Assembly: GCA_964017235.1 (NCBI GenBank)
Contig: OZ024927.1
Span: 24,447,160-24,511,159, forward strand
Length of the DNA: 64,000 nucleotides
Reading direction: 5' to 3'
From: Sabellastarte sp. h YS-2021
Taxonomy: Eukaryota; Annelida; Polychaeta; Sabellida; Sabellidae
Shown: piece after piece, positions 3,094 through 62,563 of the stretch
Numbering within the stretch: the first letter of the stretch is position 1
Layout: each line of letters begins with the position of its first letter
Position numbers and translations under genes: made by a program
The notes under the pieces: model-generated
What the model saw: only the letters and a program-made list of their open reading frames with translations
What the model was told of the DNA's origin: nothing
Databases searched by the model: none

Positions 3094-3096
3094 GTT

Positions 3097-11165: not shown

Positions 11166-11194
11166 AAATGTAGATATCTTTTCTGGATCGGGTT

Positions 11195-11560: not shown

Positions 11561-11572
11561 CTTCGCTTTTGC

Positions 11573-37190: not shown

Positions 37191-37576
37191 ACTTGATGAA
37201 AATATATCTATAAATTAATATAGTGATTTGAAACATAATACAATAGAAACAGAATAGAAACATGTAGCGCAAAATTGATACAAAACCCTCTAATGCACTC
37301 GAGATCAAAAAAAGCAAAGTCCAGGGACGTATCAGGTCAAGATGCAAATTAGCGCCCACCGGGGAGATGTACTATAGTGGAGGATATAATAGTTTAAACA
37401 AATAGGTTTTGAGCTGGCTTTGGTAACCTGTTATTGTGTGCTGTGATCGGACTGATTGTGGGAGTCCGCCCCACACAGCGGGGGAAGCCACCGCAAAACC
37501 CACCGAGGAAACATGCAGTCGATTTCCATGAGCTAGGTCACTGGGTTTTTTTATATATTTTTATTTCTTTTTGTTA
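37191..37576. other. Spacer, no gene seen
   Basis: No supported ORF and no repeat boundary were recognised. A GC-rich stretch near 37460-37510 is non-coding. Confidence 0.4.
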
Positions 37577-38813: not shown

Positions 38814-38821
38814 AAACAACA
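38814..38821. other. 8-bp target duplication, left copy
   Basis: AAACAACA directly precedes the left terminus GGTTGGTGCTTCATG. The same eight bases directly follow the right terminus at 62556-62563. Confidence 0.75.
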
Positions 38822-38851
38822 GGTTGGTGCTTCATGGTGGAGCCCGCGAAA
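38822..38851 (+). repeat. Left terminal inverted repeat
   Basis: 27 of 30 bases match the inverted right end. It includes TGGAGCCCGCGAAA, and a second CCCGCGAAATTT follows at about 38861. Confidence 0.75.
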
Positions 38852-39039
38852 TGAATTCCCGCGAAATTTTTTTGGAGGACCTAGAACCTCTACCACTTTG
38901 TGGGGTGTGGTAGAGGTAGTGGTCTGGCCCATTAATCTTACTTGGATAAGGCGTGGTAGAGGTGGGTATATATTTCTTGCAAACTGCCCCCCGTTTTTGG
39001 GGTGTGGTAGAGGTAGAGGTCGATCCCAGTAATTTTAAT

Positions 39040-41890
39040 AGGAGAAGGTGGGGGATAGGTGTGGTAGAGGTGAGATATAGTATATATTTCTTGCAAACTC
39101 TACCATGTTTTGGGGGTGTGGTAGAGGTAGAGGTCTGTCCCAGTAATTTTAATTGGATAAGGCGTGGTACAGGTGGGGGAGAGGTGTGGTAGAGGTCAGA
39201 TATAGTATATATTTCTTGCAACATGTACCACGTTTTGGGGGTGTGGTAGAGGTAGAGGTTGATCCCAGTGATTTTAATAGGACAAGGTGGGGGAGAGGTG
39301 TGGTAGAGGTCAGATATAGTATATATTTCTTGGAACCTCTACCACGTTTTTGGGGTGTGGTAGAGGTAGAGGTTGATCCCAGTAATTTTAATTGGAGATG
39401 GTGGGGGACAGGTGTGGTAGAGGTGAGATATGGTATATATTTCTTGCAACCTCTACCGCGTTTGGTTGGTGTAGTAGAGGTAGAGGTTCATCCCAGTAAT
39501 TTTAATTGGAGAAGACGTAGTAGAGGTGGGGGAGAGGTGTGGTAGAGGTCAGATATAGTATATATTTCTTGCAAAATGTACCACATTTTGGGGGTGTGGT
39601 AGAGGTAGATGTCTGCCCCATTAATTGTAGTTGGAGAAGGCGTGGTAGAGGTCACATGTAATGTATATTTTTTTAAACCTCTACCATGTTTTACGGGTGT
39701 GGTAGAGGTAGAGGTTGATCCCATTGATTTCAGTTGCAGAAGGTGTGGTAGATGTGGGGGAGAGGTGTGGTAGAGGTCAGATATATTATATTTCTTGCAA
39801 CCTGTACCACATTTTCGGGGTGTGGTAGAGGTAGAGGTTGATGCCAGTAATTTTAATTGGTGAATGTGGGGGAGAGGTGTGGTAGAGGTGAGATATAGTA
39901 TATATTTCTTGTAAACTGCACCACGTTTTGGGGGTGTGGTAGAGGTAGAGGTTGATCCCATTAATTTCAGTTGAAAAAGGTGGGGGAGAGGTGTGGTAGA
40001 GGTCAGATATAGTATATATTTCTTGCAAACGCTACCACGTTTTGGGGGTGTGGTAGAGGTAGAGGTTGATCCCAGTGATTTTAATAGGACAAGGTGGGGG
40101 AGAGGTGTGGTAGAGGTGAGATATAGTATATATTTCTTGCAACCTGTACCACGTTTTCGGGGTGTGGTAGAGGTAGAGGTTGATCCCAGTAACTTTAATT
40201 GGAGAAGGTGGGGGTGAGGTGGGGTAGAGGTGAGATATAGTATATCTTTCTTGCAACCTGTACCGCGTTTGGGGGGTGTGGTAGAGGTAGAGGTCGATCC
40301 CAGTAATTTTGATAGAAGGTGGGGGAGAGTTGTGGTAGAGGTGAGATATAGTATATATTTCTTGCAAACTCTACCATGTTTTGAGGGTGTGGTAGAGGTA
40401 GAGGTCGATCCCAGTAATTTTAATAGGAGAAGGTGGGGGAGAGGTGTGGTAGAGGTGAGATATGGTATATATTTCTTGCAAACTCTACCATGTTTTGGGG
40501 GTGTGGTAGAGGTAGAGGTCTGTCCCAGTAATTTTAATTGGATAAGGCGTGGTACAGGTGGGGGAGAGGTGTGGTAGAGGTCAGATATAGTATATATTTC
40601 TTGCAACATGTACCACGTTTTGGGGGTGTGGTAGAGGTAGAGGTTGATCCCAGTGATTTTAATAGAACAAGGTGGGGGAGAGGTGTGGTAGAGGTCAGAT
40701 ATAGTATATATTTCTTGGAACCTCTACCACGTTTTGGGGGTGTGGTAGAGGTAGAGGTTGATCCCAGTAATTTTAATTGGAGATGGTGGGGGACAGGTGT
40801 GGTAGAGGTGAGATATAGTATATATTTCTTGCAACCTCTACCGCGTTTGGTTGGTGTAGTAGAGGTAGAGGTTCATCCCAGTAATTTTAATTGGAGAAGA
40901 CGTAGTAGAGGTGGGGGAGAGGTGTGGTAGAGGTCAGATATAGTATATATTTCTTGCAAAATGTACCACATTTTGGGGGTGTGGCAGAGGTAGATGTCTG
41001 CCCCATTAATTGTAGTTGGAGAAGGCGTGGTAGAGGTGGGGGAGAGGTGTGGTAGAGGTCACATGTAATGTATATTTTTTTAAACCTCTACCATGTTTTA
41101 GGGGTGTGGTAGAGGTAGAGGTTGATCCCATTGATTTCAGTTGCAGAAGGTGTGGTAGATGTGGGGGAGAGGTGTGGTAGAGGTCAGATATATTATATAT
41201 TTCTTGCAACCTGTACCACGTTTTCGGGGTGTGGTAGAGGTAGAGGTTGATGCCAGTAATTTTAATTGGTGAATGTGGGGGAGAGGTGTGGTAGAGGTGA
41301 GATATAGTATATATTTCTTGTAAACTGCACCACGTTTTGGGGGTGTGGTAGAGGTAGAGGTTGATCCCATTAATTTCAGTTGAAAAAGGTGTGTTAGAGG
41401 TGGGGGAGAGGTGTGGTAGAGGTCAGATATAGTATATATTTCTTGCAAACGCTACCACGTTTTAGGGGTGTGGTAGAGGTAGAGGTTGATCCCAGTGATT
41501 TTAATAGGACAAGGTGGGGGAGAGGTGTGGTAGAGGTGAGATATAGTATATATTTCTTGCAACCTGTACCACGTTTTCGGGGTGTGGTAGAGGTAGAGGT
41601 TGATCCCAGTAACTTTAATTGGAGAAGGTGGGGGTGAGGTGGGGTAGAGGTGAGATATAGTATATCTTTCTTGCAACCTGTACCGCGTTTGGGGGGTGTG
41701 GTAGAGGTAGAGGTCGATCCCAGTAATTTTAATAGAAGGTGGGGGAGAGTTGTGGTAGAGGTGAGATATAGTATATATTTCTTGCAAACTCTACCATGTT
41801 TTGGGGGTGTGGTAGAGGTAGAGGTCTGTCCCAGTAATTTTAATTGGATAAGGCGTGGTACAGGTGGGGGAGCGGTGTGGTAGAGGTAAG
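39040..41890 (+). repeat. Older higher-order repeat, about 1.385-1.42 kb unit
   Basis: Marker monomers near 39153-39545 return at 40538-40930 (offset 1385), and those near 40032-40367 return at 41452-41787 (offset 1420). The 35-bp change comes from two short insertions in the second copy, near 41037 and 41393. Scattered substitutions make this older than the 1381-bp duplication. Confidence 0.85.
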
Positions 41891-42246
41891 ATATAGTATA
41901 TATTTCTTGCAACCTGTACCACGTTTTCGGGGTGTGGTAGAGGTAGAGGTTGATCCCATTAATTTTAATTGGAGAATGTGGGGGAGAGGTGTGGTAGAGG
42001 TCAGATATAGTATATATTTCTTATAAACTGCACCACGTTTTGGGGGTGTGGTAGAGGTTGATCCCAGTAATTTTAATTAGAGAAGGTGGGGGTGAGGTGG
42101 GGTAGAGGTGAGATATAATATATCTTTCTTGCAACCTGTACCGCGTTTGGGGGGTGTGGTAGAGGTAAAGGTTGATCCCAGTAACTTTAATTGGAGAAGG
42201 TCGGGGTGAGGTGGGGTAGAGGTGAGATATAGTATATCTTTCTTGC

Positions 42247-45008
42247 AACCTGTACCGCGTTTGGGGGGTGTGGTAGAGGTTGATCCCAGTAATTTTAATA
42301 GGAGAAGGTGGGGGGAGAGGTGTGGTAGAGGTGAGATATGGTATATATTTCTTGCAAACTCTACCATGTTTTGGGGGTGTGGTAGAGGTAGAGGTCTGTC
42401 CCAGTAATTTTAATTGGATAAGACGTGGTACAGGTGGGGAGAGGTGTGCTAGAGGTCAGTTATAGTATATATTTCTTGTAAACTGCACCACGTTTTGGGA
42501 GTGTGGTAGAGGTAGAGGTTGATCCCAGTAATTGTAATTGGAGAATGTGGGGGAGAGATGTGGTAGAGGTCAGATATAGTATATATTTCTTGCAAACGCT
42601 ACCACGTTTTGGGGGTGTGGTAGAGGTAGAGGTTGATCCCAGTGATTTTAATAGGACAAGGTGGGGGAGAGGTGTGGTAGAGGTCAGATATAGTATATAT
42701 TTCTTGCAAACGCTACCACGTTTTGGGGGTGTGGTAGAGGTAGACGTTGATCCCAGTGATTTTAATAGGACAAGGTGGGGGAGAGGTGTGGTAGAGGTTA
42801 GATATAGTATATATTTCTTGCAAACGCTACCACGTTTTGGGGGTGTGGTAGAGGTAGAGGTTGATCCCAGTGATTTTAATAGGACAAGGTGGGGGAGAGG
42901 TGTGGTAGAGGTCAGATATAGTATATATTTCTTGCAAGCTGTACCACGTTTTGGGGGTGTGGTAGAGGTAGAGGTTGATCCCAGTAATTTTATTTGGAGA
43001 TGGTGGGGGACAGGTGTGGTAGAGGTGAGATATAGTATATATTTCTTGCAACCTCTACCGCGTTTCGGGGGTGTAGTAGAGGTAGAGGTTCATCCCAGTA
43101 ATTTTAATTGGAGAAGGTATAGTAGAGGTGGGGGAGAGGTGTGGTAGAGATATAGTATATATTTCTTGCAACATGTACCATGTTTTGGGGGTGTGGTAGA
43201 GGTAGATGTCTGCCCCATTAATTGTAGTTGGAGAAGGCGTGGTAGAGGTGGGGGAGAGGTGTGGTACAGGTCACATATAATGTATATTTTTTGAAACCTC
43301 TACCATGTTTTGGGGATGTGGTAGAGGTAGAGGTTGATCCCATTGATTTCAGTTGCAAAAGGTGTGGTAGATGTGGGGGAGAGGTGTGGTAGAGGTCACA
43401 TATATTATATATTTCTTGCAACCTGTACCAAGTTTTCGGGGTGTGGTAGAGGTAGAGGTTGATCCCAGTAATTTTAATTGGAGAATGTGGGGGAGAGGTG
43501 TGGTAGAGGTCAGATATAGTATATATTTCTTGCAAACACTACCACGTTTTGGGGGTGTGGTAGAGGTAGAGGTTCATCCCAGTAATTTTAATTGGAGAAG
43601 GTGTGGTAGAGGTGTGGTAGAGGTGAGAACCTGTACCGCGTTTGGGGGGTGTGGTAGAGGTTGATCCCAGTAATTTTAATAGGAGAAGGTGGGGGGAGAG
43701 GTGTGGTAGAGGTGAGATATGGTATATATTTCTTGCAAACTCTACCATGTTTTGGGGGTGTGGTAGAGGTAGAGGTCTGTCCCAGTAATTTTAATTGGAT
43801 AAGACGTGGTACAGGTGGGGAGAGGTGTGCTAGAGGTCAGTTATAGTATATATTTCTTGTAAACTGCACCACGTTTTGGGAGTGTGGTAGAGGTAGAGGT
43901 TGATCCCAGTAATTGTAATTGGAGAATGTGGGGGAGAGATGTGGTAGAGGTCAGATATAGTATATATTTCTTGCAAACGCTACCACGTTTTGGGGGTGTG
44001 GTAGAGGTAGAGGTTGATCCCAGTGATTTTAATAGGACAAGGTGGGGGAGAGGTGTGGTAGAGGTCAGATATAGTATATATTTCTTGCAAACGCTACCAC
44101 GTTTTGGGGGTGTGGTAGAGGTAGACGTTGATCCCAGTGATTTTAATAGGACAAGGTGGGGGAGAGGTGTGGTAGAGGTTAGATATAGTATATATTTCTT
44201 GCAAACGCTACCACGTTTTGGGGGTGTGGTAGAGGTAGAGGTTGATCCCAGTGATTTTAATAGGACAAGGTGGGGGAGAGGTGTGGTAGAGGTCAGATAT
44301 AGTATATATTTCTTGCAAGCTGTACCACGTTTTGGGGGTGTGGTAGAGGTAGAGGTTGATCCCAGTAATTTTATTTGGAGATGGTGGGGGACAGGTGTGG
44401 TAGAGGTGAGATATAGTATATATTTCTTGCAACCTCTACCGCGTTTCGGGGGTGTAGTAGAGGTAGAGGTTCATCCCAGTAATTTTAATTGGAGAAGGTA
44501 TAGTAGAGGTGGGGGAGAGGTGTGGTAGAGATATAGTATATATTTCTTGCAACATGTACCATGTTTTGGGGGTGTGGTAGAGGTAGATGTCTGCCCCATT
44601 AATTGTAGTTGGAGAAGGCGTGGTAGAGGTGGGGGAGAGGTGTGGTACAGGTCACATATAATGTATATTTTTTGAAACCTCTACCATGTTTTGGGGATGT
44701 GGTAGAGGTAGAGGTTGATCCCATTGATTTCAGTTGCAAAAGGTGTGGTAGATGTGGGGGAGAGGTGTGGTAGAGGTCACATATATTATATATTTCTTGC
44801 AACCTGTACCAAGTTTTCGGGGTGTGGTAGAGGTAGAGGTTGATCCCAGTAATTTTAATTGGAGAATGTGGGGGAGAGGTGTGGTAGAGGTCAGATATAG
44901 TATATATTTCTTGCAAACACTACCACGTTTTGGGGGTGTGGTAGAGGTAGAGGTTCATCCCAGTAATTTTAATTGGAGAAGGTGTGGTAGAGGTGTGGTA
45001 GAGGTGAG
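42247..45008 (+). repeat. Higher-order repeat, 1381-bp unit duplicated in tandem
   Basis: The segment 42247-43627 is repeated at 43628-45008 with no difference that I could see. Marker variants (GAGAACCTGTACCGCG, a missing satellite block near 43148, CATATATTATATATTTC) keep the same order at an offset of exactly 1381. The unit holds about 12 monomers. Confidence 0.9.
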
Positions 45009-45241
45009 ATATAGTATATACATCTTGCAACCTGTTCCACATTTTCGGGGTGTGGTAGAGGTAGAGGTTGATCCCAGTAATTTTAATTGGAGAAGGTGGG
45101 GGAGAGGTGTGGTAGAAGTGAGATATAGTATATATTTCTTGCAAACACTACCACGTTTTGGGGGTGTGGTAGAGGTAGAGGTTCATCCCAGTAATTATAT
45201 CCCCAGACGAAAGTCGGGGATATATTGGATTCAGGTCCGTC

Positions 45242-45242
<1 letters not shown>

Positions 45243-45287
<45 letters not shown>
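45243..45287. repeat. (CCG)n microsatellite
   Basis: About 15 uninterrupted CCG triplets just inside the 5' end of the Helitron-like element. A microsatellite near the 5' end is a known trait of bivalve and Drosophila tandem-cored elements. Confidence 0.95.
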
Positions 45288-45419
45288 AGAAATTTCCTTG
45301 TGGACGCGATAACTCAAAAACAAATTAATATTTTTTTTTCAAACTTGGTACACATGTTAAGGGTGCCCAAAGGAAGATCCCTATTTTAAGGTGACCTTAA
45401 ACTCCCAGTAAAAAAGAAC

Positions 45420-47245
45420 TTATGGCCACCTTAAGGTCAGAAATTGGACTTTTGGCCACTTAGAGCCCTGTAGGTCACAAACTATGATGCTCAGCTGGCT
45501 GAAATTTTACCTGACAACACATTAATATGTTCTTAGTACATGTGCCGAAAATCACGACTTTAAGTTGAGGAGAAAATTGTGTTTGAGGCCCATAAATACC
45601 CCCACTTGGGGATTTTTTGCTATATTTTTCACATATTTTGCCCTATAATTTGGAAGTGGTAATTCTGATGAGTCTCAAACTGCGCTAGGTATAACTTTGA
45701 TATGTAATCCTTGTCTGTAGAAAATTTTAGGGCTGTAGGTTTACCCAAAGGGGTCGACTTAAGGTCTCAAAAGTGCCCACAGAGACCCAATTTATGCACT
45801 TTTTGCCACTTTCAAGCACTGTAGCTTTCAAACTATGTCTCTCATCTAAGTTAAATATCATCTGGGAATATATCTATGTGTTTTCTTATATGTGCCCCAA
45901 CATTTAGGCCTTTAATAGACAGTTAACCTGTGTATCAGGACCATAAACACCCACCCGAGTGACCCTTATAAGACATTTTTCACATCTTTTTCCCTGTAAC
46001 TTGGAAATGGTAAGTCTGAGAAGTTTCAAACTGTATTAGATATATATTCTGTGTGTCATCTTAGTATGTAACAGATTTTAAGTCTGAAGCTTTAATTTTG
46101 AAGGTCAAATTGAGGTCTCTAAAAGGCTCCCAAAGACCCAATATTTGGACTTTTTGCTACTTTTAAGCCCTGTGACTGTCAAACTATGTGACTGATAGAG
46201 CTCAAATCCTATCTGGGAAGATATTAGTATGTTATTTATATATGTGCCAAAAATTAAGGCTTTAAGAAGACATTTAACCTGTGTATGAGGACCATAAATC
46301 CCCACCCGAGTGACCATTTTTAGACATTTTTCACATATTTTGCCCTGTAACTTGGAAATGGTAAGTCTAAGAAGTTTCAAACTGTATTAGATGCATATTC
46401 TATGTGTAATCTTAGTATGTGACAAATTTTAAGTCTGAGGCTTTAATTTGAAGGCCACATTTAGGTCTCTAGAAGGCCCCATAAAGACCCAGTATTTGGA
46501 CTTTTTGCCAATTTTAAGGCCTGTGACTGTTAAACTATGTGACTGATAGAGCTGAAATCTCATCTGGGAATACATTATTATGTTCTTTTTACATGTGCCA
46601 AAAATCAAGGCTTCAAGTAGACATTTAACCTGTGTATGAGGACCTTAAACACCCACCTGAGTGACCCTTTTAAGACATTTTTCACATATTTTGCTCTGTA
46701 ACTTGGAAATGGTAAGTCTGAGAAGTTTCAAACTTTATTAGATACATATTCTATGTGTAATCTTAGTATGTAACAAATTTTAAGTCTGAAGCTTTAATTT
46801 GAAAGCCACATCGAGATCTCTAAAAGGCCCACAGAGACCCAATATTTGGACTTTTTAACCACCTTTAAGCCCTGTGACTGTTAAACTATGTGATTGATGG
46901 AGCTGAAATCCCATCTGGGAATGCATTATTATGTCCTTTTTACATATGCCGAAAATCAAGGTTTTTAGTAGACATTTAACCTGTGTATGAGGGCCATAGA
47001 CACTCGCCCAAGTGCCTTTTTGGACATTTTTTCCGTATTTTACCCTGTTATTTGGAAATGCTTAGTGTGACAAGTCTTAAACTGTATTATATATAATTTT
47101 TGTTTGTTATGTATGTCCCCCAAAAAGTTTCAGATCTGTTGTTTAATTGCTAAGGTCTCTTTAACAATTGTAAAATGCCCACAGAAACCCAATTTATGGA
47201 CATTATGCCACTTTAAAGCCCAGTAACTGTCAAACTATGTGGGTT
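45420..47245 (+). repeat. Tandem repeat, about 350 bp, five copies
   Basis: The block TTGGACTTTTTGCCACTTTTAAGCCCTGTGACTG-like, followed by AACTATGTGACTGATAGAGCTGAAAT and TTTTGCCCTGTAACTTGGAAATGG, recurs at about 45446, 45792, 46142, 46492, 46843 and 47191. The last copies are diverged. This is the core of the Helitron-like element. Confidence 0.9.
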
Positions 47246-48029
47246 ATAGAGCTGAAATCTTTGAATTTTTAAAAGGAAATGCCTGTCTATTTAAATTTTG
47301 AATATTAATAATGTTATGGCTATCTTAGTCTTTTAAGAACTTATTTTTGTGTGTTATACCTCTGCTTGCTGAGTTTTTAACTTTTTAAAATGAAACTGGT
47401 TAAACATATTCAAGTAGACAAAATGGACACTTTAAGTGAGCTTTAAGTCCCAATATTAATGAAATTATATCCTTATGTAGTAAAAGTAGGGGATTTTTAA
47501 CCCTCAACTAGCCCAGTTTTATTCAACTTGCCTCAGTTAATTTTGACACAGCTCCTACAGTTATGAACTCATTTCAGTTGATAATCACATACTTAAAATT
47601 CTCAATTCTTTTTGTATTTGAGTACCCCTTTTATATAGATTGTTTGTTTACCATTTATGCATCCCCCACCCGGATTCCCCCCACCCACCTCTGGGACCTC
47701 CAGCTATATTGAGTGACACTAAATAAACAAAGGTATTTAATGATGCTTCATTACATATAACACAAAGGGGAGTCAGAACTGAGATTGTGTCACATATTTA
47801 GGTTGCATATATATGGACCACATATATAGGTATAGAGGAAATGAATAACTGAAAACAATTTGCAAATTCTAAAAATAATATAATAAAATAATAATATAAA
47901 TAATTTTTTTTTAAATAATATTTTATTTGTGAACAAATATAGAAACAGATATGCGCTTTTGGGATTATGAATTTTAGAATGGACATTGAATCATCAATCA
48001 TTTAAATACTTTGAAGGAAGATTGAAAAG

Positions 48030-48170
48030 TATGATGAGTTGAGTTAAAAATAATATTTTATTTGTCAACAAATATAGAAACAGATATGCTCTTTTGGGAT
48101 TATTATTTTAGAATGGACATTCAATCATCAATCATTTAAATACTTTGAAAATAGGTTTAGAGTTATCATT
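48030..48170. repeat. Local direct repeat
   Basis: AAATAATATTTTATTTGT.AACAAATATAGAAACAGATATG at about 47911-47952 returns at 48048-48089, followed in both by GGGATTAT and CATTGAATCATCAATCATTTAAATACTTTGAA-like sequence. Confidence 0.75.
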
Positions 48171-48376
48171 GCAGGAAGATTGAAAATATAATTTGAGTTA
48201 TGTATTCGGCGTCTGGGGATACACCATCTTCCTTGGAAGATATAAACAGAGTAGATTGATGTGCTGAAGTTCATATAATAATGGGTAATTATGTTTTAAA
48301 AAATTCCCGATCAAAACCTGTGGCGTGAGTGATGACCTGTCTGGGGATATGTTGGCGCCGAGTTGGCCCAATCTAG

Positions 48377-49100
48377 TTTTAATTGGAGAAGGTGTGGTAG
48401 AGGTGAGATATAGTATATACATCTTGCAACCTGTTCCACATTTTCGGGGTGTGGTAGAGGTAGAGGTTGATCCCAGTAATTTTAATTGGAGAAGGTGGGG
48501 GAGAGGTGTGGTAGAAGTGAGATATAGTATATATTTCTTGCAACCTCTACCATGTTTTGGGGGTGTGGTAGAGGTAGTAGTCTGCCCCAGTAATTATAAT
48601 TGGAGAAGGCGTGGTAAAGATGGAGGAGAGGTGTGGTAGAGGTCAGATATAGTATATATTTCTTGCAACCTGTACCACGTTTTCGGGGTGTGGTAGAGGT
48701 AGAGGTTGATCCCAGAGATTTTAATAGGACAAGGTGGGGGAGAGGTGTGGTAGAGGTGAGATATAGTATATATTTCTTGTAAACTGTACCACGCTTTGGG
48801 GGTGTGGTAGAGGTAGAGGTTGATCCCAGTAATTGTTATTGGAGAGAGTGGGGGAGAGGTGTGGTAGAGGTGAGATATAGTATATATTTCTTGTAAACTG
48901 TACCACGCTTTGGGGGTGTGCTAGAGGTAGAGGTTGATCCCAGTAATTGTAATTGGAGAAGGTGGGGGAGAGGTGTGGTAGAGCTGAGATGTAGTATATG
49001 TTTCTTGCAACCTGTACCACGTTTTGGAGGTGTGGTAGAGGTAGAGGTCTGTCCCCTTAATTTTAGTTGGAGAAGGCGTGGTAGAGGTGGGAAAGATATG
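48377..49100 (+). repeat. Satellite array, left arm, second part
   Basis: Six further monomers of the same satellite continue after the Helitron-like insertion. The first repeats a rare variant (TATACATCTTGCAACCTGTTCC) also present just left of the insertion at about 45014. Confidence 0.9.
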
Positions 49101-50039
49101 GGTAGAGATCTTTCAAACATTTGAGTGCAAAGTGAATGGTATAAGACTTATCTTCAAGTGGAGTGTTAAATTACTTTCTTATGAAATTACTTTCTTTTAC
49201 CCCATATAGCTTTGCTTAGTAATACGACCAGGCACACAGGACTTAACATTATATTTTTGTATCATTATATGTTCATTTTAATATATTCTGTTTACTTATG
49301 AATGATTTCACACAGCATGTATGGTATTGAGGCCACCTTATATATTCTTTACACCATTCCTTGTCCAAAATTCCTTTTCACAGTGTGAAACTTTGCCAGA
49401 TAAGACAATGCAGATAAGAGAAGCCTCCCTCAATCCTATTGAAATGCCCCCCTCCCCTCTGCCCCCCTTACTATTGGCAGGGGGTTTGAGGCAATCTTTA
49501 TATGGCTATTGACAGAAGATGTTATATTTGATGTGTTTTCATGAATAATAGAAAAGCAGTTTTGGTGGAAAGATATATGAAAAAGCAGAAAAGATATAAA
49601 TGGGAATGATATTGAGAGGATAAATTATTGGAGTGAGAAATATGTTACTATGTGGTGAATACTCCTGATTTCATATTTCATTAGCACAAAATGAAAGTTG
49701 AATTGGAAAGACAATGCAATGGTTAAAGTAATTGATGATTAGTTGCAATATCAAATATTGTAGTAGTTTGGGGTAACACATTAATGCATAAAATTGATGA
49801 AAATGATAAAACACATTGATGCATAAAATTGATCAAAGTGATGAAATACACATTGCATATAAAATTGGGTGTTTTCTGTTACCTTATATGGGTAGATGTC
49901 CTTTTAACATTAAGCATTTCAAAATTATGAATTTACACTGATATTAATCCAGTGCTCTTTGATGAGCTATGTCTAGGTCTCAGCTATGTCGAGATTAAGT
50001 AAGTGAAATTGTAAAAACATTCTTCAGTTTGGATAAAAT
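49101..50039. other. Unique spacer inside the giant element
   Basis: AT-rich and non-coding. A short duplicate (ATTGATGCATAAAATTGAT...) lies near 49780-49865. No gene was seen; the 63-codon ORF at 49321-49512 is not supported. Confidence 0.5.
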
Positions 50040-51836
50040 AAACTGCTACAGAATTATATACTGCCACTAATCGATTACCCTAATCATGGCATACAGTCCA
50101 ATTCCGACCTGTCCCTAACCTAGGTACCCTAATCTATATCAGTAATCATTAAGTACCCTAACCATGAGATAAAGACGGTCCAATTTTGAAAAAAGGTATT
50201 CTAGAGTTTGGTACCCTAGCTACTACAGAAAGATATGTTACTAATCCTCCAGTAGCCTAACCATTGTATGAAGTCAGTGAAATGAAACCTACTCATAAGC
50301 CAGGTACCCTAAGCTATGTCAGTAATGATGAAATACTGTAATCATGAAATAAATTTTGTGAAATTTTAAAAATATTGTACAGTTTGTTATGCTAGAGTAC
50401 TACAGAATGATATACTATCACTTATCCTGAAGTATCCTAAACATTGCAGGAAGTCAGTCCAATTCCAAGCTAATCCTGACGTAACTACCCTAAGCTATGT
50501 TAGTAATGATAAATACCCTAAGCATGAGATGAAATCAGTAAAAGTGAAAAAATATTCTTCAGTTTGGTACCGCAAAGTACTACAACGTTTTATATTGTCA
50601 CTAATCACCTTAACCATTGCATGGTAAGTGCAATTCCAAGCTTTCCTTATCCTAAGTTCCCAAAGCCATGTCATTAATCACAAAGTACCAAAACCATGAC
50701 ATTATGTAAGTGAAATTGTAAAAATATTCTACAGTTTGGTACCCTAAACTACTACAGAATTATATATTACCCTTCATCATTGATTACCCTAATCATGGCA
50801 TTTGGTCAGTCCGATTCCGACCTATCCCGAAGGTAGGTACCCTAAGCTATGCCAGTAATGAGGAAGTACCCTAAGCATAAGATGAAGACCGTGCAATTTT
50901 TAAAAGTATTCCACAGCTTGGTACCCTGAACTAAACCAGAATTATATAGTGTCAATAATCCTCTGGTACCCTAACCATTAAATAAACTCAGTCTAATTGA
51001 AACATAGTCATAACCTACATAGGCTATGTCAGTAATCATGAAGTACCCCAAACATGAAATAAAGTCAGTGAAATTGATAAATTGTTCTAGATTTTGGGAA
51101 ACCTAAAGTATTAGAAAAAATATATTGTCCCTAATCATCAGGTACCCTAACCTATGGACAAAGTGAGTGCAATTCCAAGCTTTCCTTAACCTAAGTACCC
51201 TAAACTATGGTAGAAATAACGTATGTACCCTAAGCTATGTTACCAATCATGATGTACCCAAACCATGACAAATATTGGTACCGTAACTATTACAGAATTA
51301 TATATTGTTAGTAATCTTCCAGTAGCCTAACCATTGCATAAAGTCAGTGCAATGAAAACCTACTCGTAACCTAGGTACCCAAAGCAGTGTCAGTAATGAT
51401 GACGTACCATAATCATGACATAGACTTAGTGAAACTTTAAAAATATTCTACAGTTTCCTATACTAAAGTACTACATAATTATATACTCACACTAATCATG
51501 AAGTATCCTAACCACTTGAGGAAGTCAGTCCAATTCCAAGCTAATCCTAACGTAACTACCCTAAGCTATGTCAGCAATGATAAAGTACCCTAAGCATGAG
51601 ATAAAACCAGTAAAAGTGATGAAATACTCTAGAGTTTGGTACCCCAAAACACAACAACATTTTATATTGTGAGTAATCATGGAGTACCTTACCATTGTAT
51701 AGTCAGTCTAATTCCAAACTTTCCTAAACCTAAGTTCCTAAGCTATGTCGGTAATCATAAAATACCCTAATCACGAGATTAAGTAAGTGAAATTGTAAAA
51801 ATATTCTACAGTTTGGTACCCTAAATTACTACAGAA
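50040..51836 (+). repeat. 180-bp satellite array, first block
   Basis: About ten diverged copies of a unit with TACCCTAAGCTATGTCAGTAATCATGAAGTACCC, GTGAAATTGTAAAAATATTC, ACAGTTTGGTACCCTAAA and ACAGAATTATATATTGTCACTAATC. Anchors at about 50124, 50306, 50487, 50656, 50838, 51018, 51227, 51377, 51556 and 51733 give a mean spacing near 180 bp. Confidence 0.9.
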
Positions 51837-51904
51837 CTAGAGGAATGCTTTTGCTAAGAAAAGCGAAGCGTCCCTAAAAGTTTAAAATGCTTTGTGGTTT
51901 CCAT

Positions 51905-52570
51905 AGCGGGGGGGACTGACCGGCTATTTAGATTCTCCACATATGCTTTTTCCCCAAAAAAGGCAAAAACTCCAAAGCAACTATTTTATGACCCCAGTTT
52001 GACCCATAAGGGGGGCCGGGGAATAAAACTGACCGGCTATTTAGACTCTCCACATATGCTTTCCCAATACCTGTTAATACATTCTGAAGCTATAAAAGCA
52101 ACAATAAAGGAGATATAAGGCAAAAACTCAAAATCAGCTATTTTATGACCCCAGTTTGACCCATAAGGGGGGGCTGTGGGGTAAAACTGGCCGGCTATTT
52201 AGACTCTCCACATATGGTTTGCCAATACCTGTTAATACATTCTGAAGCTATAAAAGCAACAATAAAGGAGATATAAGGCAAAAACTCAAAATCAGCTATT
52301 TTATGACCCCAGTTTGACCCATAAGGAGGGGCCGGGGGTAAAACTGTCCGGCTATTTAGACTCTCCACATATGCTTTCCCAATACCTCTTAATACATTCT
52401 GAAGCTATAAAAGCAACAATAAAGGAGATATAAGGCAAAAACTCAAAATCAGCTATTTTATGACCCCAGTTGGACCCATAGGGGGGGCCGTGGGGTAAAA
52501 CTGACCGGCTATTTAGACTCTCCACATATGGTTTCCTATTACCTCCCAGTACATTTTATGGCTCTACTTA
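51905..52570 (+). repeat. Tandem repeat, about 158 bp, four copies
   Basis: GACCGGCTATTTAGACTCTCCACATATG and TTTTATGACCCCAGTTTGACCCATAAGG recur at about 51920, 52031 (a shortened first unit), 52189, 52348 and 52503. Confidence 0.9.
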
Positions 52571-52783
52571 AGAAGACAATAGGGGGGGTTGACCTAAATT
52601 TAAGGTTGTCGGATTGGAAGGTGTCAGAAAATCACTCATAAATGAGACATTTTTCAAGGGATTGCTCCCAAAATCTAATCAGCTCGCATTTTCGATAGTA
52701 TGAACAGGTGTGTCAAATTATAAGGCTGTGTAGCAAATAGTTTTTCCTGAACTGCGATGACGGGGGTGGGGGGGTGTACATCA

Positions 52784-52816
52784 AACAAGAGGAGAGTGCC
52801 CGTGAACGGGCACTCT
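52784..52816. repeat. AACAAGAGG plus perfect hairpin, probable element terminus
   Basis: AACAAGAGG (52784-52792) is followed by a 10-bp perfect stem (AGAGTGCCCG/CGGGCACTCT) with loop TGAA, then GTCAGCTGAC. GTCAGCTGAC also occurs twice near 55638-55665. AACAAGAGG also opens the element at 56219. Confidence 0.55.
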
Positions 52817-53029
52817 GTCAGCTGACTGAGTGTTTTTGATTTGTGAAGGTGATTAGAGGACAGAATAATTATCAGGAAAAGGGCTGTACAGAAATACAGT
52901 AAATGGTAACTGAACAGCAAGTTCGAAAGCTGACAGAAGAAAAGGATAAAAAAGTTGTGCCCTGTAAATGGTATTATGAAGGAAAATAACAAGGTAATTG
53001 TTTAAGTGTAAAAAATAGGTTAAAACATA

Positions 53030-53640
53030 TTTAAAGAAATACTACAAATGCAATATCCTCGTTCGACCTTGAAGAAGGGGTCCAAGGTCAAATCTAACCA
53101 CACAAATACATTCCCAGCCCATGATTTCCTATGGTTTACCATTCCAAACCTCTAGGACCAATTATAAATGAGTTATAAGCACTTTTAAGCTTGGCTGTCC
53201 TCATTTGACCTTGAAGGAGGGGTCCAAAGGTCAAATCTGACCATACCAAAAGATTCCGAGCCAATAATTTCCTATGGGATGGTTTACCATCCCAAATCTC
53301 TGTCACCAATAATAAGCGAGTTGTAGGCACTTTCAATTTTCGCTATCCTCATTTAACCTTGAAGGAGGGTTCCAAGGTCAAATCGGACCATATCAACAGA
53401 TTCACAGCCCATGATTTCCTGTCTGTTTACCATCCCAAACCTCTGGGACCAATAATAAGCGAGTTATAAGCACTTTTAAGTTTGGCTATCCTTGTTTGAC
53501 CTTGAAGGAGGGGTCATTGAAGGTCAAATCTGACCACACCAAAAGATTCCCACCCCATGATTTCCTACAGGTTGGTTTATCATCCCAAACCTCTAGGATC
53601 AATAATAAGGGAGATATAAGCACTTTTCATGACTGACAAA
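53030..53640 (+). repeat. Tandem repeat, about 150 bp, four copies
   Basis: TTTGACCTTGAAGGAGGGGTCC, AAGGTCAAATCTGACCA, ATGATTTCCTA and GAGTTATAAGCACTTTTAAG recur in fixed order from about 53070. Confidence 0.9.
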
Positions 53641-53789
53641 AAACACCTGTGGCGGCCATCTTGTTTCTCAAAATGAGGCCAAAAATATTCCCAGACAACA
53701 TTTTATGGTTATTAATATATACTGCAAACTTAAGAAAGCTAGCTATAATATTTTTTTTCATCAGAGCAGTAATGGTGAAATCTCTCTCT

Positions 53790-55250
53790 ACATACTGCGG
53801 CTATCCAGTGGATACAATGATTTACTCAACAGTGAGAACCTGAAAGTAGCTATTGCTCAGCTATGCCATGACATAGAGGTCTGCAATTTCACTATGTTAT
53901 AGCTGACCAAAAATTCTGTGAATAACATATTTAACAAATTACTCTAAATGTAATAGTTTTCAAGTTACAACTGATTTACTCAACAGTGAGAACCTCAAAG
54001 GAACTATTACTCAGCTATGCAATGAGCTACATGTCTGAAATTTTACTATGTTATAGCTAACCCAAAAGTAGGTGAACAACATATTTAAGCAAACTACTGT
54101 AAATGCAATAGTTTTCAAGCTACAACTGATTTACTCAATAGTGAGAACCTGAAAATAGCTATTGCTCAGTTGTGCCATCAGCTATAGGTCTATAATTTCA
54201 CTATGTTATAGCTGACCCAAAAGTAGCTGAATAACATATTTGCACAAATTTCTGTAAATGCAATAGTTTTCCAATTATAACTGATTTACTCAACAGTGAG
54301 AACTTCAAAGTAGCTATTACTCAGCTATGAAATGAGCCACAGGTCTGAAACTTCACTATGTTATAGCTGACCCCAAAATAGGTGAATAACATATTGAAAC
54401 AAAATACTCTAAATGCAATAGTTTTCAAGTTATAAGTGATTTACTCAACAGTGATAACCTAAAAGTAGCTATTACTCAGCTATGCCATGAGCTACAGGTC
54501 TGAAATTTTACTATGTTATAGCTGGCCCAAAAGTAGCTGAATAACATATTTATACGAAATTCTCTAAATGCAATAGTTTTTAAGTTACAAGTGATTTTAC
54601 TCATGATGGAAGTTACTGAAAAGCCCAAAAGTAGCTATTACTCACTTAGCTATTGAGACAGACACCCAACTTACTCACCATATTGTAGCTATGAAAAAAG
54701 TAGCTGAATAACATATTTTAACAAAATGCTCTAAATGCAACACTTTTCAAGTTATAAGTGATTTACTCAACAGTGATAACCTAAAAGTAGCTATTACTCA
54801 GCTATGCAATGAGCTACGGGTCTGAAATTTTACTATGTTATAGCTGACCCAAAAGTAGCTGAATAACATATTTATACGAAATTCTCTAAATGCAATAGTT
54901 TTCAAGTTATAAGCGATTTACTCAACAGTGATAACCTAAAAGTAGCTATTACTCAGCTATGCCATGAGCTACAGGTCTGAAATTTTACTATGTTATAGCT
55001 GGCCCAAAAGTAGCTGAATAACATATTTATACGAAATTCTCTAAATGCAATAGTTTTTAAGTTACAAGTGATTTTACTCATAATGGAAGTTACTGAAAAG
55101 CCCAAAAGTAGCTATTACTCACTTAGCTATTGAGACAGACACCCAACTTACTCACCATATTGTAGCTATGAAAAAAGTAGCTGAACAACATATTTTCACA
55201 AAATGCTGTAAATGCAACACTTTTGAAGTTATAAGTGATTTAGTGCATGA
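53790..55250 (+). repeat. Tandem repeat, about 162 bp, nine copies
   Basis: Units carry GATTTACTCAACAGTGAGAACCT, AGTAGCTATTACTCAGCTATG, TTTTACTATGTTATAGCTGACCC and AATGCAATAGTTTTCAAGTTATAA. A subset with ACTCATGATGGAAGTTACTGAAAAGCCC appears twice (about 54600 and 55078), indicating a higher-order duplication of about 480 bp. Confidence 0.9.
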
Positions 55251-55734
55251 TTTCATGAATTTTAATGCATTAAAAATTATTAAAAAAATTTATTAAAAAA
55301 AAAGTAAGACAGATCCAGGTCTCATACTCACACAAGAGAATCTACCTCTGGCCTAGTACATATATGCAAGATAGGAGAGGAATCCCGGCAATAGTCACTG
55401 AGAAAATTGTGATAAAAAGTTGAAATTTTCACACTTTTGGTGGGGGTACCCCCCTTGTAATGTCTCTAGCAAACAGTCGAACAAACAGATTTGCATGCCT
55501 TGAACAATTTTTCATCCTCGATAGATAAGGTATCTTTTTAAAAAAACAGCATGTCTCTAGGCCTTGTAGTTTTGGAGGAGAAGTTGTTCACGCGTACGCA
55601 GACGCGTACGCCCACGCCGCAGAGTGATGACATAATGTCAGCTGACTGACAAGTCAGCTGACATAAAAATTGTTTTTGATCATGTGACCTTCATAAAGGT
55701 CAAAGGTCAAATTTAAGCATGCAGAAAAGTTTTC

Positions 55735-56220
55735 GGTCAGTCCAATTCAGACCTATCCCGAATCCAGGCAATTCCAAGCATTCCTTAACCTAAGTACCCT
55801 AAGCTATGGTAGAAATAACCTATGTACCCTAACCTATGTTAGCAATCATGATGTACCCAAAGCATGACAAATATTGGTACCCTTACTAATACAGAATTAT
55901 ATATTGTTAGTAATCCTGCAGTAGCCTAACCATTACATAAACTCGGTGCAATGAAAACCTGCTGGTAACCTAGGTACCCCAAGCTATGTCAGTAATGATG
56001 ACGTACCATAATCATGACATATACTGAGTCAAATTTTTAAAATATTCTAGAGTTTCCTATGCTAAAGTACTACATAATTATATACTGTCACTAATCTTGA
56101 AATATGCCAACCATTGCAGGAGGTCGGTGCAATTGCAAGCTAATCCGAACGTAACTACCCTAAGCTATGTCGGTCATCATAAAATACCATAATGACAAGA
56201 TGAAGTGAGTGAAATTGTAA
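55735..56220 (+). repeat. 180-bp satellite array, second block
   Basis: About 2.7 copies of the same unit as 50040-51836, in the same orientation. Confidence 0.9.
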
Positions 56221-56419
56221 CAAGAGGGTCACAGATGCCCCAAAAGGCGGGTTGCGCAGGCAGAAATAAGGTTAGCAACTGCTGTAATTACATTTAGAAA
56301 AGAAGGAAAGAAATGTTAGGTTACCCAGTTAAGGTGAATGTGTAAGACGTGCTAAGAAACGTAAAACTTGTAATCTAGGTTACATAATTGTATATGCTAT
56401 AAATGGACAAACGAAAGGA

Positions 56420-57400
56420 TGGAATTACACCAACTTAGCAACTTAGCTATGATGGTGGTGCATCTCCCTGTCAAGTTTGAATTAGACTGGACAAAGCATT
56501 TTCGAGTTAGAGTCCAGAGACTGCTGGACAGAAAAATGGACAAAAAACAGACAAACGCACAGGAAAACAGACAAACAAACAGACAAACGGACAGGAAAAC
56601 GGACAAACAAACAGACAGAATTACACCAATTTCGAAAGGAACCTAGCTATGATGGTGAACTATATCCCTGTCAAGTATGAATTCGATTGGACAAACTGTT
56701 TTCGAGTTGGAGTCCGGAAACGAAAATGTGGACAGACAGATGGACAGACAAACGGACAAAAAACGGACAAACGAACAAACGGAATTTCACCAATATTGAA
56801 AGGAACCTAGCTATGATGATGATGTATGTCCCTGTGAAGTTTGAATTTGATTTGACTAACCGTTTTCAAGTTAGAGTCCGGAAACGAAAATGTGGACGGA
56901 TAGATGGATGGACAGAAAAATGGACAAAAAACGAACAAACGGACAGAAAAACGGACAAACAAACAGACGGAGTTACACCAATTTCGAAAGGAACCTAGCT
57001 ATGATGGTGATCTATCTCACTGTCAAGTTTGAATTCGACTGGTCAAACCGTTATCGAGTTAGAGTCCGGAAGCGAAAATGTGGACAAACAGATGGATGGA
57101 CAGACAAACGGACAGAAAAACGTACAAACGAACGGACGGAATTTCACCAGTTTCGAAAGGAACCTAGCTATGATGGTGATGTATCTCTCTGTCAAGTTTG
57201 AATTTGATTGGTCAAACCGTTTTGGAGTTAGAGTCCGGAAACGCAAATGTGGGCAGACGGATGGACAGACAAACGGACAAAAAACGGACAAACGAACAGA
57301 CGGAATTTCACCAATATCGAAAGGAACCTAGCTATGATGCTGATCTATGTCCCTGTCAAGTTTGAATTTGATCGGACAAACCGTTTTTGAGTTAGAGTCC
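56420..57400 (+). repeat. Tandem repeat, about 175 bp, five to six copies
   Basis: Units carry TTTCGAAAGGAACCTAGCTATGATGGTGAT, TGTCAAGTTTGAATTCGA, CGAGTTAGAGTCCGGAAACG and a variable GGACAGACAAACGGAC-type tract. The purine-rich tract keeps reading frames open, producing spurious ORFs rich in Asp, Lys, Arg and Thr. Confidence 0.95.
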
Positions 57401-59267
57401 AGTGTAGCGCCAGATAATGTATCTCCCACAAAGTGTGTGGGGATACAAAATATGGCAAGGGAGCTGCCACATTTTGTATCCCCTGCCATATTCTATATCC
57501 CTTGGCCATATTTTGTATCCCCTTGTGTATGAACTAATCATTAGAAATTCCCTATGTTTATTATGGTTATGCAGTTAATACCCCAATGTTTGTAATCTAA
57601 ATAATTTTTTAGTTTTCAAAACCTTTTAAACGGAAAAGTTTTCATCCCAGGAAATCTCATTAGATTTCTCTCTTGGCATATTTATAATTGTTACCTAGAT
57701 GAATTTGCAACCATTGCTAAGTTTTGGAAAAAACTGGGAAAAAGTAGAAAACAAAATTAAATTATATTCTTTGTATATGTAATGAATACACAGCATATGA
57801 GTGAATTCAACACAATGTGAATTGTGCATTAATTCTCCATTTACAAACTTTTATAAATGTGTTTTAAATATATAACCATCTCACTACTTTTGTAAACCAT
57901 ATAAATTGCAATAGTTCTACAAAGCTATACATATAATTTTGGAATTTTATTACAGAAAGTTATTCCTGTGTACAAGAGTCAGATAGGACTAGGTAAATGC
58001 AACTAATGCAACACAAGGCTAAGATTTAAAATGACTACCGTAAGCCTTTCTAAAATATTTGATCATATTTACTCCTCTATGTTCAGCTCAACACTGACTG
58101 ACCAGAGGCCAATAAAGCTTAATGCTAATCCACTTATTAAATTGTGAACATATCAACATGACTTCCCATTGACACTGAAGAGGCACAACAACATCAGGCC
58201 CAACAACAAAATCCAACTAACTAATCACCAACTAATCATACTTGGCCTAATGCCCCTATGTCCATGTCAATAGGAAGCCATTCTTTTTACGTTCTTTTTA
58301 AGTTGATTTGATACTTTGTTTACAGGTAGAATTCAGTGGATTGCACTTAATCTTTGTTGGCCTCATGGGTCAGTTTTGGGCTTAAGAATACCTGATACTG
58401 TTAGACCTTACATGTATTTTGTCTACAGTTTACCTTTAATCTTGTAAATTGTCTTCCCAATAGTTGGATAAAATATTGTGAATATGGAGTGAATACATAA
58501 TGCACATTCATTTGAATTCAATGTAAAAAGCGATATGTGAATATATAATCATTTGAAGATTCTCTATCAATTTTTGTAAGTTTTAATTTTAGAACTTTAT
58601 GAATTTAATTCAAAATTTTACCTAGTTGCTATATCTTGTAAAAAAGCTTGTGAATAGGGAGTTGATACAAAAAAATGTACATACAAATCAAAATATAAAT
58701 AAAATATTCACAATGGACTTTATAATACAGTTATTTCTACCATGTTAACATGGTCTAGCCAGTTCCAGCCAATTTGAAGATTTCCATGATTTATTGTTAA
58801 GGAATGAATTAATTGGTGCAAAACACTAACTTCATATTCTGTGAACACTGAATGAATGGGACAAATTGGAATTTTAAAATGGTTTTCAGTGTTACAGTTA
58901 GTATGAATTTGTATGACTTTTTATGTATAAGGCATAGTCCTGTATACTATATTGCATATAACTATATATCTTCATAACTCTACTTTACTTCCAACCCTAT
59001 TCACTCTTCAAGGAATCAAATCAAAAGTTGGTCAGGCTGAGACCACTGATTTGTTTGACTTACAACAATCATCTCAAACAATGTCAACTTAATCCCTCCA
59101 GCTCTGTTTGCTATTTATATCACCACCTTTACACCCCCTTTACACATTTTAATTGAGGGGGATACAGAATATGATGGGGATACACAATGTAGCTGTCATA
59201 TTTTGTATGACCTTACAGAATATGGCAGGATACAGAATATGGCATGCATACAAAATATGGTGTTACA
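57401..59267. mobile_element. Nested DNA transposon in the 175-bp repeat
   Basis: It cuts the repeat word GAGTCC/GGAAACG. The ends are AGTGTAGCGCCAGAT and, inverted, TGTAACACCATAT. CC lies at both borders (57399-57400, 59268-59269) as a possible 2-bp duplication. Both subterminal regions hold several copies of ATACAAAATATGGCA in both orientations. The 1.87 kb is non-coding. Confidence 0.7.
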
Positions 59268-59350
59268 CCGGAAACGAAAAATGTGGACGGCAGACAGACG
59301 GACGTCGGACACATCAATCTAATAGTCGGGTTGGTTACACGCAACCCGCC

Positions 59351-60035
59351 TAAAAATAGTCTACAGTTTGGTACCCTAAATTACTGCAGAATTATATATT
59401 GGCATTAATCATTGATTACCTTAATCATAATACAGTCAGTCCAATTGCGACCTATCCCTAGGCTAGGTACCCTAAGCCATGGCAGTAATCATGAAGTACC
59501 CTAAGCATGACATATCAAGACGGTCCAATTTTAAAAAGTATTCCACAGTTCCGTACAATAAAGTAATACAGAATTATATAGTGTCACTAATCCTCTAGTA
59601 CCCTAACCATTACATAAGGTCAGTCCAATTGAAATGTCATAAAGTAGGTACCAGCCTAAGCTATGTGAGTAATCATGAAGGACCCCAAACATGAGATAAA
59701 GTCCTCGAAATCGATAAAATATTCTAGAGTTTGTGAACCGTAAACTATTGCAAAATGATATATTGTCACTAATCATCAAGTAGCCTAAGCATTGGACAAA
59801 GTGAGTGGAATTCCAAGGTTTCCTTAACCCAAGTACCCTAAAGTATGTTAGAAATAACCTAAGTACCCTTAGCTATGTTTAGCAATCATGAAGTACCCGA
59901 ACCAGGAGATTAAGTCCATCAAATTGGAAGCTATCCTTAAGCAACATACCCTAAGCTATGTTGATAATCATGAAGTCCCCTAAGCATGAGATGAAGTTAT
60001 TGCAATAAAAAATATTGTAGAATTGGGTATCTGAA
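59351..60035 (+). repeat. 180-bp satellite array, third block
   Basis: About four further copies in the same orientation, decaying toward 60035. Confidence 0.9.
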
Positions 60036-61021
60036 AGTAAATGGGTTTGTTATTCTTGAATTACTCCATTTGTGGGTAAAACTGCTGATACCTATAATTT
60101 CAGGGGACAACATAGTGATATAAAAATGTTTACAGGGGGGTTTAACACAAAAGCTGCTGTCCAAGTTAATCCCCAAATACGACCCCCCTTCTCATTTACT
60201 ATGGTTGACATAGAGTGGCTCAACCTTTTCTTGACTCCCTTTCCTGAGTTGACTATTGATATAAATGTAATTTGTGTTTACTCCGTTGTTAAGTAGATTG
60301 TAGTGGATCCTGTATTATGTCCCATTGTTCCTTCAGGTCATATTGAATTCTTAAATATGGACATATGTAGGTGTTGTAAATTGTACTTTACCATTGGAAA
60401 TCTCTAAAAAATATAACCTGAATATTCAATTTGGTAAGTTTACAACAAACCATTTAGCCACCCAAAAAGTCTTGTATTCTACCAAGATATATACACTTGT
60501 ACCTTGAGACAATTACTTTCACTTTTTCCACAAGATGTTTTGTATCTGTATGTTACCGCACAATTACAATTTTAATGCTTTCACATACAATGTATATCCA
60601 GAAAATAACATTAATAAGGACTGACCTGCCTGCCACACACTAAACTGGCACAGACAAAACAGATAACATATTATGCAAACAAACACAATAGATTGACCAC
60701 AGGAAGGGGGGGGGGTGGGGGGGTGGGAGGGGCCATTGGGAGCAGGTGTGTAATCTGTCACAGTTTGATATTTCCAGAGCAATGCAATTGAAACAAGTGT
60801 TACGAATGTAAGGTTACCTTAACATTGTGCTTCTGTTATAAATATAATGATAAAAGAAATAAAACTACAGAAATACACAAAATAATATTATGAAGGAAAG
60901 AAAACAGTGGCTAGTGGATAAAATGTTTCTTGTTAAGTCATCTGAATGAGCTGTAAAAGTATGTAACTTTCATTTGTCTAATGCTTTAGTCTGTGTGCTA
61001 CTTTACCCTTTCTTGGACCTA
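60036..61021. other. Unique spacer inside the giant element
   Basis: No gene is supported. The 74-codon ORF at 60072-60296 has protein-like sections but no recognised family. A G-run lies at about 60706-60728. Confidence 0.45.
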
Positions 61022-62483
61022 TACGACACCTCTCCCCCACCTCTCCCACACCCTGTCCAACTGAAATTACTGGGATAGACCTCTACCTCTCCCACACCCC
61101 CAAAATACATAGAAATACCTACTATATCTGACCCCTACCACACCTATCCCCCGCCTATACCACGCCTTCTCCAACTGAAATTAATGGGATAGACCTCTAC
61201 CCCTACCACACCCCTGAAACATGGTAAAACGTGGTAGAGGTTACAAGAAATATATACTATATGTGACCTCTACCACACCTCTGCCCCACCTCTACCACGT
61301 CTTCTCCAATTAAAATTACTGGGATCAACCTCTACCTCTACCACACCCCCAAAACGAGGCAGAGCTTGCAAGAAATATGTACTATATCTCACCTCTACCA
61401 CACCTCTCCCCCACCACTACCATGCCTCTTCCAATTAAAAGTACTGGGATAGACCTCTACCACACCCCCAAAATGTGGTAGAGGTTGTAACAATATATAC
61501 AATATATGACCTCTACCCCACCTCTCCCCCACCTCGACCATGACTTCTCCAATTAAAATTACTGGGATCAACCTCTACCACACCCCCAAAACGTGCTACA
61601 GGTTGCGAGAAATATATACTATATCAGACCTCTACCAAACCCCTACCCCACCTCTACCACGCCTTCTCCAACTACTACTAATGGGATAGACTTCTACCTC
61701 TACCACACCCCAAAAACGTGGTACATGTTCCAAGAAATATATACTATATCTGACCTCTACCACACCTCCCCCACCTCTACCACGCCTTCTCCAACTAAAA
61801 TTAATGGGGCAGACTTCTACCTCTACCACACCCTCAAAACATGGTAGAGGTTGCAAGAAATATATACTATATCTCACCTCTACCACACCTCTCACCCACC
61901 TTCTCCAATTAAAATTACTGTGATAGACCTGTACCCCTACCACATCCCCAAAACGTGGTAGAGGTTGGAAGAAATATAAACTACATTTGACCTCTACCAC
62001 ACCTCTACCACGCCTTCTCCAACTAAAACTAATGGGATAGACTTCTACCTCTACCACACCCCAGAACGTGGTACATGTTATAAGAAATATATATTATATC
62101 TGACCTCTAACACACCTCTCCCCCACCTTCTCCAATTAAAATTACTGGGATCAACCTCTACCTCTACCACAACCCCAAAACATGGTAGAGGTTGCAAGAC
62201 ATATATACTATATCGGACCTCTACCCCACCTCTACCACGCATTGTCCAAATAAAACTAATGGGAGAGACTTCTACCTCTACCACACCCCCAGAATGTGGT
62301 ACCTGTTCCAAAAAATATATACTATATCTGACCTCTACCACACCTCTCCCCCACCTCTACCATGCCTTATCCAATTAAAATTACTGGGACAGACCTCTAC
62401 CTCTACCACACCCCCAAAATGTGGTAGAGATTGCAAGAAATATATACTAAAATTAATGGGATGGACCTCTACCTCTACCACAT
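61022..62483 (-). repeat. 114-126 bp satellite array, right arm, inverted
   Basis: About 12 monomers of the same satellite as the left arm but in reverse orientation (CCTCTACCTCTACCACACC, ATTAAAATTACTGGGAT, AAGAAATATATACTATATC). They are more diverged from one another than the left-arm monomers and lack the long higher-order repeats. Confidence 0.95.
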
Positions 62484-62525
62484 ATTCTATTTCTTACATA
62501 GCCCACCCCCCACCCCTCCCCAAAT

Positions 62526-62555
62526 TTTCGCGGGCTCCAACATGAAGTATCAACC
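62526..62555 (-). repeat. Right terminal inverted repeat
   Basis: TTTCGCGGGCTCCAACATGA...CAACC is the inverse of the left terminus at 38822-38851 with three mismatches. Confidence 0.75.
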
Positions 62556-62563
62556 AAACAACA
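62556..62563. other. 8-bp target duplication, right copy
   Basis: AAACAACA, identical to 38814-38821 and placed exactly at the end of the terminal repeat. Confidence 0.75.

Follow-up and report, generated by a model that had tools for sequence, protein, structure and literature searches.

A probable foldback transposon with satellite-repeat arms, apparently enlarged by Helitron-like inserts and local duplications

The foldback elements FB of Drosophila and TU of sea urchin have arms built of short tandem repeats, a plan shared by the element described here, in which the repeat units are longer; FB is related to Mutator and makes 9-bp target-site duplications, and those of TU are 8 bp long. 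As far as the available portions of the report describe it, Tetris of Drosophila virilis is a non-autonomous foldback element with tandem repeats of about 220 bp in both inverted arms, like the element here (PMC4079207). Its repeats occur in arrays of up to 66 copies, and fibre-FISH placed long arrays between two outer domains (PMC4079207), so that long growth of foldback-arm repeats is not in itself new. Merlin elements, in the accessible text, have tips of 24-462 bp that begin with GG, generate duplications of 8-9 bp and in some families contain tandem repeats (PMC8101967). One mollusc study, in its available parts, identified 63 Merlin elements in all with an average length of 1,635 bp, and its library-based count placed Merlin almost only in cephalopods (PMC10294476). 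In the accounts consulted, CTRR ends and a hairpin characterise Helitrons, while Helentrons have terminal Ts and insert at TT, and neither group makes a target duplication (PMC4067079, PMC7492417).

The present locus lies in a 64,000-nucleotide stretch of DNA from Sabellastarte sp. (hereafter the window). Direct reading showed that a block of about 23.7 kb (38822-62555) is flanked on both sides, as in foldback elements, by the exact 8-bp direct duplication AAACAACA (38814-38821 on the left and 62556-62563 on the right, both on the plus strand). The block ends in 30-bp terminal inverted repeats (38822-38851, plus strand; 62526-62555, minus strand), which both start with GGTTG and match at 27 of 30 positions, the mismatches falling at positions 6, 8 and 16. 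Beyond 30 bp the sequences adjacent to the tips differ, and comparison without gaps added no match up to position 34. A 22-base terminus pattern, allowing up to three mismatches, occurred twice in the window, once on each strand, at the two tips and at no third place; the mean in 100 shuffles was 0.00. The same pattern had no match in a set of viral contigs, which is hardly informative here. The satellite core was found in two viral contigs and judged to be a chance match; one (L001) held no tandem arrays and the other (L002) two unrelated ones.

As a control, every exact 8-bp direct duplication in the window was collected (212,634 position pairs), and the inner 30 bases of each pair were scored. 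Ten pairs reached at least 27 of 30 inverted matches. In nine of these, the 8-mers (CACTAGTG, CCAATTGG, CTTGCAAG) are self-complementary and lie inside longer inverted repeats, which makes the duplication trivial; the AAACAACA pair is the tenth and the sole non-palindromic one. The tips and the duplication thus show the insertion step itself.

Both tips are followed on the inner side by one satellite, with a 114-bp unit and variants of 125 bp, which runs in opposite orientation in the two arms; the inverted arms consist wholly or largely of tandem repeats, as expected of a foldback element. The main block of the left arm (38885-45196, plus strand) holds about 54 units from 38966 on (TRF 38966-45196, 53.6 copies; unit spacing; outer edge by eye), and a second block in the same orientation occupies 48379-49113 (TRF 48385-49089, 6.1 copies; inner edge by eye). 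The right arm (61010-62485, minus strand; TRF 61226-62449, 10.3 copies; edges by eye) carries the satellite inverted and gave minus-strand self-BLAST matches to 48390-49111 at 78.5-86.7%. Once the insert that splits it is removed, the left arm including its tip measures 7,110 bp, and the right arm 1,546 bp, on edges placed by eye. The original prediction of opposite arrays of one satellite, with units of 114-126 bp, matching tips and an exact 8-bp bracket, is confirmed by these data. The arrays of both arms end near the same phase of the unit. A shared inner boundary of the arms was considered and rejected, since the last left unit, compared with the innermost right stretch, scored 59.5, less than the median of 75.5 for the right arm, where the best score was 94.5. 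The DNA fold of one satellite unit did not support a strong hairpin (z -0.72; 40 of 200 shuffles folded equally well).

Part of the left arm is internally duplicated. Stretch 42247-43628 recurs unchanged as 43628-45009 (1,382 bp each), the two abutting exactly and forming a perfect tandem duplication (42247-45009, plus strand; lag 1,381 bp) that reflects a recent event or an assembly fault. An older local duplication of about 1.4 kb (39000-41826, plus strand) relates 39000-40406 to 40385-41826 in three aligned segments (653 bp at 99.1%, 196 bp at 99.5% and 429 bp at 99.3% identity), shifted by small length changes to lags of 1385, 1409 and 1420. The tips differ at 3 of 30 positions, whereas the duplications are 100% and about 99% identical; either part of the 7.1 kb of the left arm is far younger than the ordinary divergence of the units, or the assembly produced the perfect copy in error. 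The predicted arm lengths of 7 and 1.5 kb agree with measurement, with the reservation that this share of the left arm is a recent duplication or an assembly fault.

Satellite units with an anchor spacing below 220 bp numbered 61 (three longer gaps, of 226, 250 and 237 bp, were excluded), and 21 of them in second copies of duplications were dropped, leaving 40 for comparison (32 left, 8 right). With these recent duplicates removed, mean identity was 0.839 between left units, 0.818 between right units and 0.812 between left and right units. Right units thus cohered no more than expected by chance (permutation P 0.44), and the nearest relative was a left unit for 31 of the 32 left units. On a tree of 39 units, from which one 203-bp unit was also removed, the arm label required six changes; shuffled labels required 7.4 on average, and 49 of 500 shuffles needed no more than six. 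We read these data as indicating that unit variation predates the split of the arms or that exchange between the arms continues, and they fit both. Because nearly all left units are nearest to left units and left-left identity exceeds left-right identity, the arms may also have grown one by one.

The interior is more complex than the single second satellite of the original prediction, as TRF found at least six tandem arrays with units of about 351, 181, 157, 143, 155 and 164 bp. Five of the six sit in stretches that we read as later inserts, and the 181-bp array is plausibly the sole interior array that belonged to the original element. It forms three blocks on the plus strand, at 49990-51836 (TRF 50305-51825; repeat alignments from 49991), 55735-56218 (self-BLAST 87.6% to 51169-51618; left edge approximate) and 59352-60040 (self-BLAST). 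Insert 1 (45197-48378, plus strand), delimited by flank joining, its 3' end and its arrays, is Helitron- or Helentron-like, contains (CGC)n and the 351-bp array, and has a 3' end CTAG beside TT; joining its outer flanks gives a continuous 114-bp-type unit. Insert 2 (51837-55706, minus strand; left edge sharp, right edge approximate) is Helitron-like, with 157- and 143-bp arrays and a 3' end of CTAG then TT on the minus strand, and its right flank fails to restore the 181-bp unit cleanly. A second 3' end within it at about 52789, with a hairpin and CTTG then TT, probably marks a nested element holding the 155-bp array. Insert 3 (56219-59351, minus strand), also Helitron-like, carries the 164-bp array, and its joined flanks restore the 181-bp unit. 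Inside insert 3, a shorter non-coding inverted-repeat element of about 1.87 kb (approximately 57400-59268) terminates in short inverted sequences (GTGTARCRCCA), with motifs resembling CCATATTTTGTATCCC close to either end, and the 164-bp unit becomes continuous again when 57399 is joined to 59269.

TT follows all four 3' ends of the inserts, two of which (CTAG) fit CTRR and two (CTTG) depart from it; one of the four is preceded by a perfect 10-bp hairpin (by eye). Insertion without target duplication, as in Helitrons and Helentrons with their T-rich or TT targets, is indicated at inserts 1 and 3, where joining the flanks restores the host repeat, and not at insert 2, where it does not. The only match to the block elsewhere in the window at E 1e-5 was a relative of insert 3 (4 of 651 BLAST rows). 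This relative, at 37018-37191, is 69-78% identical to the right end of insert 3, and its terminus coincides with that of the insert to within about 5 bp; no convincing match to the left end of insert 3 was found near 37 kb. The three later inserts, two of them holding further elements, read as about 10.2 kb of the block, which measures 13,549 bp with them removed and 10,768 bp with the duplications removed as well (the second set taken at 1,400 bp). The original prediction of a single transposition event is therefore upheld as far as one foldback insertion of the terminal-inverted-repeat type is concerned, which the tips and duplication support well. It is not supported for 23.7 kb moved at once, given the 10.2 kb of apparent Helitron-like inserts and the near-identical duplication in the left arm; the originally inserted element and later arm growth together account for about 13.5 kb once the three inserts are removed.

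Several other repeats and genes were observed in the window. A smaller foldback-like element at 37577-38772 ends 41 bp to the left of the left duplication; it terminates in the inverted sequence TATATGTCACARTGGAAACTCC, its arms contain palindromic units (CTAGTGGTAGTTCCAATTGGAACTACCACTAG), and TA stands at each outer edge, which we take to be as in Tc1/mariner-type elements. A 139-bp tandem array of 2.7 copies starting with TTGTCCGGGCTATATCTCAGAAACCGTAAGGTG occupies 35819-36189, and a 215-bp unit occurs twice in tandem with 90% matches at 16141-16571. Four open frames of 121-530 codons on the minus strand (9378-13165) resemble, by eye, a Gypsy-type LTR retrotransposon. Rfam and tRNA scans found nothing apart from one tRNA-Val gene with anticodon CAC (3094-3169, minus strand).

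Target duplications of hAT elements follow the pattern nTnnnnAn. The hAT affiliation suggested in the original prediction is not favoured, as AAACAACA departs from this pattern at position 2 (A) and position 7 (C); the GG tips also fit Merlin better than the P superfamily. Both the GG start of the tips and the duplication length of 8 bp agree with Merlin, provisionally in preference to hAT. A Merlin-type enzyme is accordingly a tentative candidate for the mobilising transposase, a provisional assignment based on two tip bases and the length of the duplication, and a Mutator-like or unclassified enzyme is the alternative. The scarcity of Merlin outside cephalopods in the mollusc count and the 1,635-bp mean element length, as given in the available parts of that study, speak against Merlin (PMC10294476). 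In six frames of 46000-60999, with stops translated as X, no Pfam family and thus no transposase was detected at E up to 1, and the DDE_Tnp_IS1595 domain typical of Merlin was likewise not detected; the scanned range lies between the mostly-arm stretches 38822-45999 and 61000-62555, which were outside it, and a partner element could lie elsewhere.

We consider that the block is probably one old, non-autonomous cut-and-paste foldback transposon that held satellite units in both arms at insertion and later received inserts and underwent duplications. The GGTTG tips would have been the recognition sites of a transposase from elsewhere, most likely of Merlin type, that integrated the element at AAACAACA. 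The element would then have carried several satellite units per arm, in opposite orientation, around a core of 181-bp repeats; the mixing of unit variants between the arms suggests that units were present in both at that time. Helitron-like elements would subsequently have entered the left arm and the core, in line with the units restored at two of the three sites, and unequal exchange or slippage would have lengthened the left arm in two or more duplications of about 1.4 kb each. By analogy, the repeated units may act as extra transposase-binding sites, as has been proposed in print for Galileo and Tetris. Against a single insertion that included arrays stand the derivation of the evidence from one locus and the agreement of the tips over 30 bp only. 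A broader reading, in which a Merlin-type transposase carried multi-kb satellite arrays as foldback arms and the satellite spreads through the genome as paired inverted arrays, bounded by GG tips and 8-bp duplications and serving Helitron-like elements as landing sites, seems rather unlikely.

The near-identical 1.4-kb duplications show that growth in place occurs, and the insertion might have been of a small inverted-repeat element whose arms each held one unit or a few and later gained nearly all their length in this manner, no array having moved; unequal exchange and slippage would have lengthened the arms, and gene conversion between them would have mixed the variants. The close relationship of left units to one another, the marked inequality of the arms and the Tetris alleles that, in the available text, differ by one duplicated repeat (PMC4079207) are consistent with such growth. 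However, the right units lack cohesion of their own and the tree intersperses the arm labels, so that, barring frequent conversion, the units seem to have varied before the arms split, and we regard growth of this kind alone as somewhat unlikely. An assembly fault in the long arm of a single insertion, namely an uncollapsed repeat of a 1.38-kb overlap that would make the true arm lengths different, would explain why the identical stretches abut exactly, as a mis-joined overlap would; the older duplication of about 99% identity, with its three different lags, does not resemble an overlap error, and this explanation is improbable. Two elements or array ends could also have arrived independently in opposite orientation, with the 8-bp match arising by chance, which would accord with the divergence of the tip-adjacent sequences beyond 30 bp and with the single locus. 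Nevertheless, only about 4e-7 chance occurrences of an exact 8-bp match around a 27/30 inverted pair are expected in the window (assuming independent bases, a figure that repeats make optimistic), and two separate events are very improbable. One foldback insertion with satellite units already in both arms is the reading that we retain.

Should there be further copies, cut-and-paste transposition could plant multi-kilobase satellite arrays, in addition to Helitrons and growth in place; this would be the mobilisation and reseeding of satellite DNA proposed in the original prediction, and paired 8-bp duplications would provide a clean test of it. If no other copy exists, the locus would illustrate, in a large element still bracketed by its duplication, the conversion of foldback arms into satellite that has been proposed for Tetris. 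A literature search of titles and abstract openings, with subscription literature largely outside it, found no other foldback element with satellite-array arms of several kilobases.

Among the described systems, the oyster Helentron/HINE elements, with short satellite arrays, a T-rich or TT target and no duplication in the available accounts, resemble the later inserts, and the outer element differs from them in its inverted tips and 8-bp duplication (PMC7492417, PMC8268682). Pearl-family MITEs of bivalves likewise have inverted termini around satellite-like tandem repeats, but in the available description these make up short internal arrays, a single block with no more than six monomers, instead of inverted arms (PMC5139131). 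Some Merlin families contain tandem repeats, and one has a repeat region also in opposite orientation, as here, according to the accessible text (PMC8101967, PMC10294476). Galileo subfamily F of D. mojavensis also has inverted arms containing direct repeats, which expand in each arm independently of the other; it differs in that its arms hold two or three repeats and do not exceed about 1.26 kb, and in belonging to the P superfamily, with a P-type transposase in the family, in the parts of the report available (PMC3573991). Tetris shows duplications of 8-10 bp and, in the available text, no transposase, again like the element here (PMC4079207). Its complete bracketed copies are described with arms of up to 1,735 bp and an outer domain of up to 866 bp (PMC4079207), compared with arms of about 7.1 and 1.5 kb and an outer domain of about 60 bp here, a comparison of plan and not of sequence. 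The arms had been predicted to be extreme; long growth of foldback-arm repeats is on record for Tetris, and what looks unusual is the length in a copy that keeps its duplication, about four times the longest bracketed Tetris arm, together with the asymmetry of the arms. The overall plan is already known, being that of Tetris and Galileo-F.
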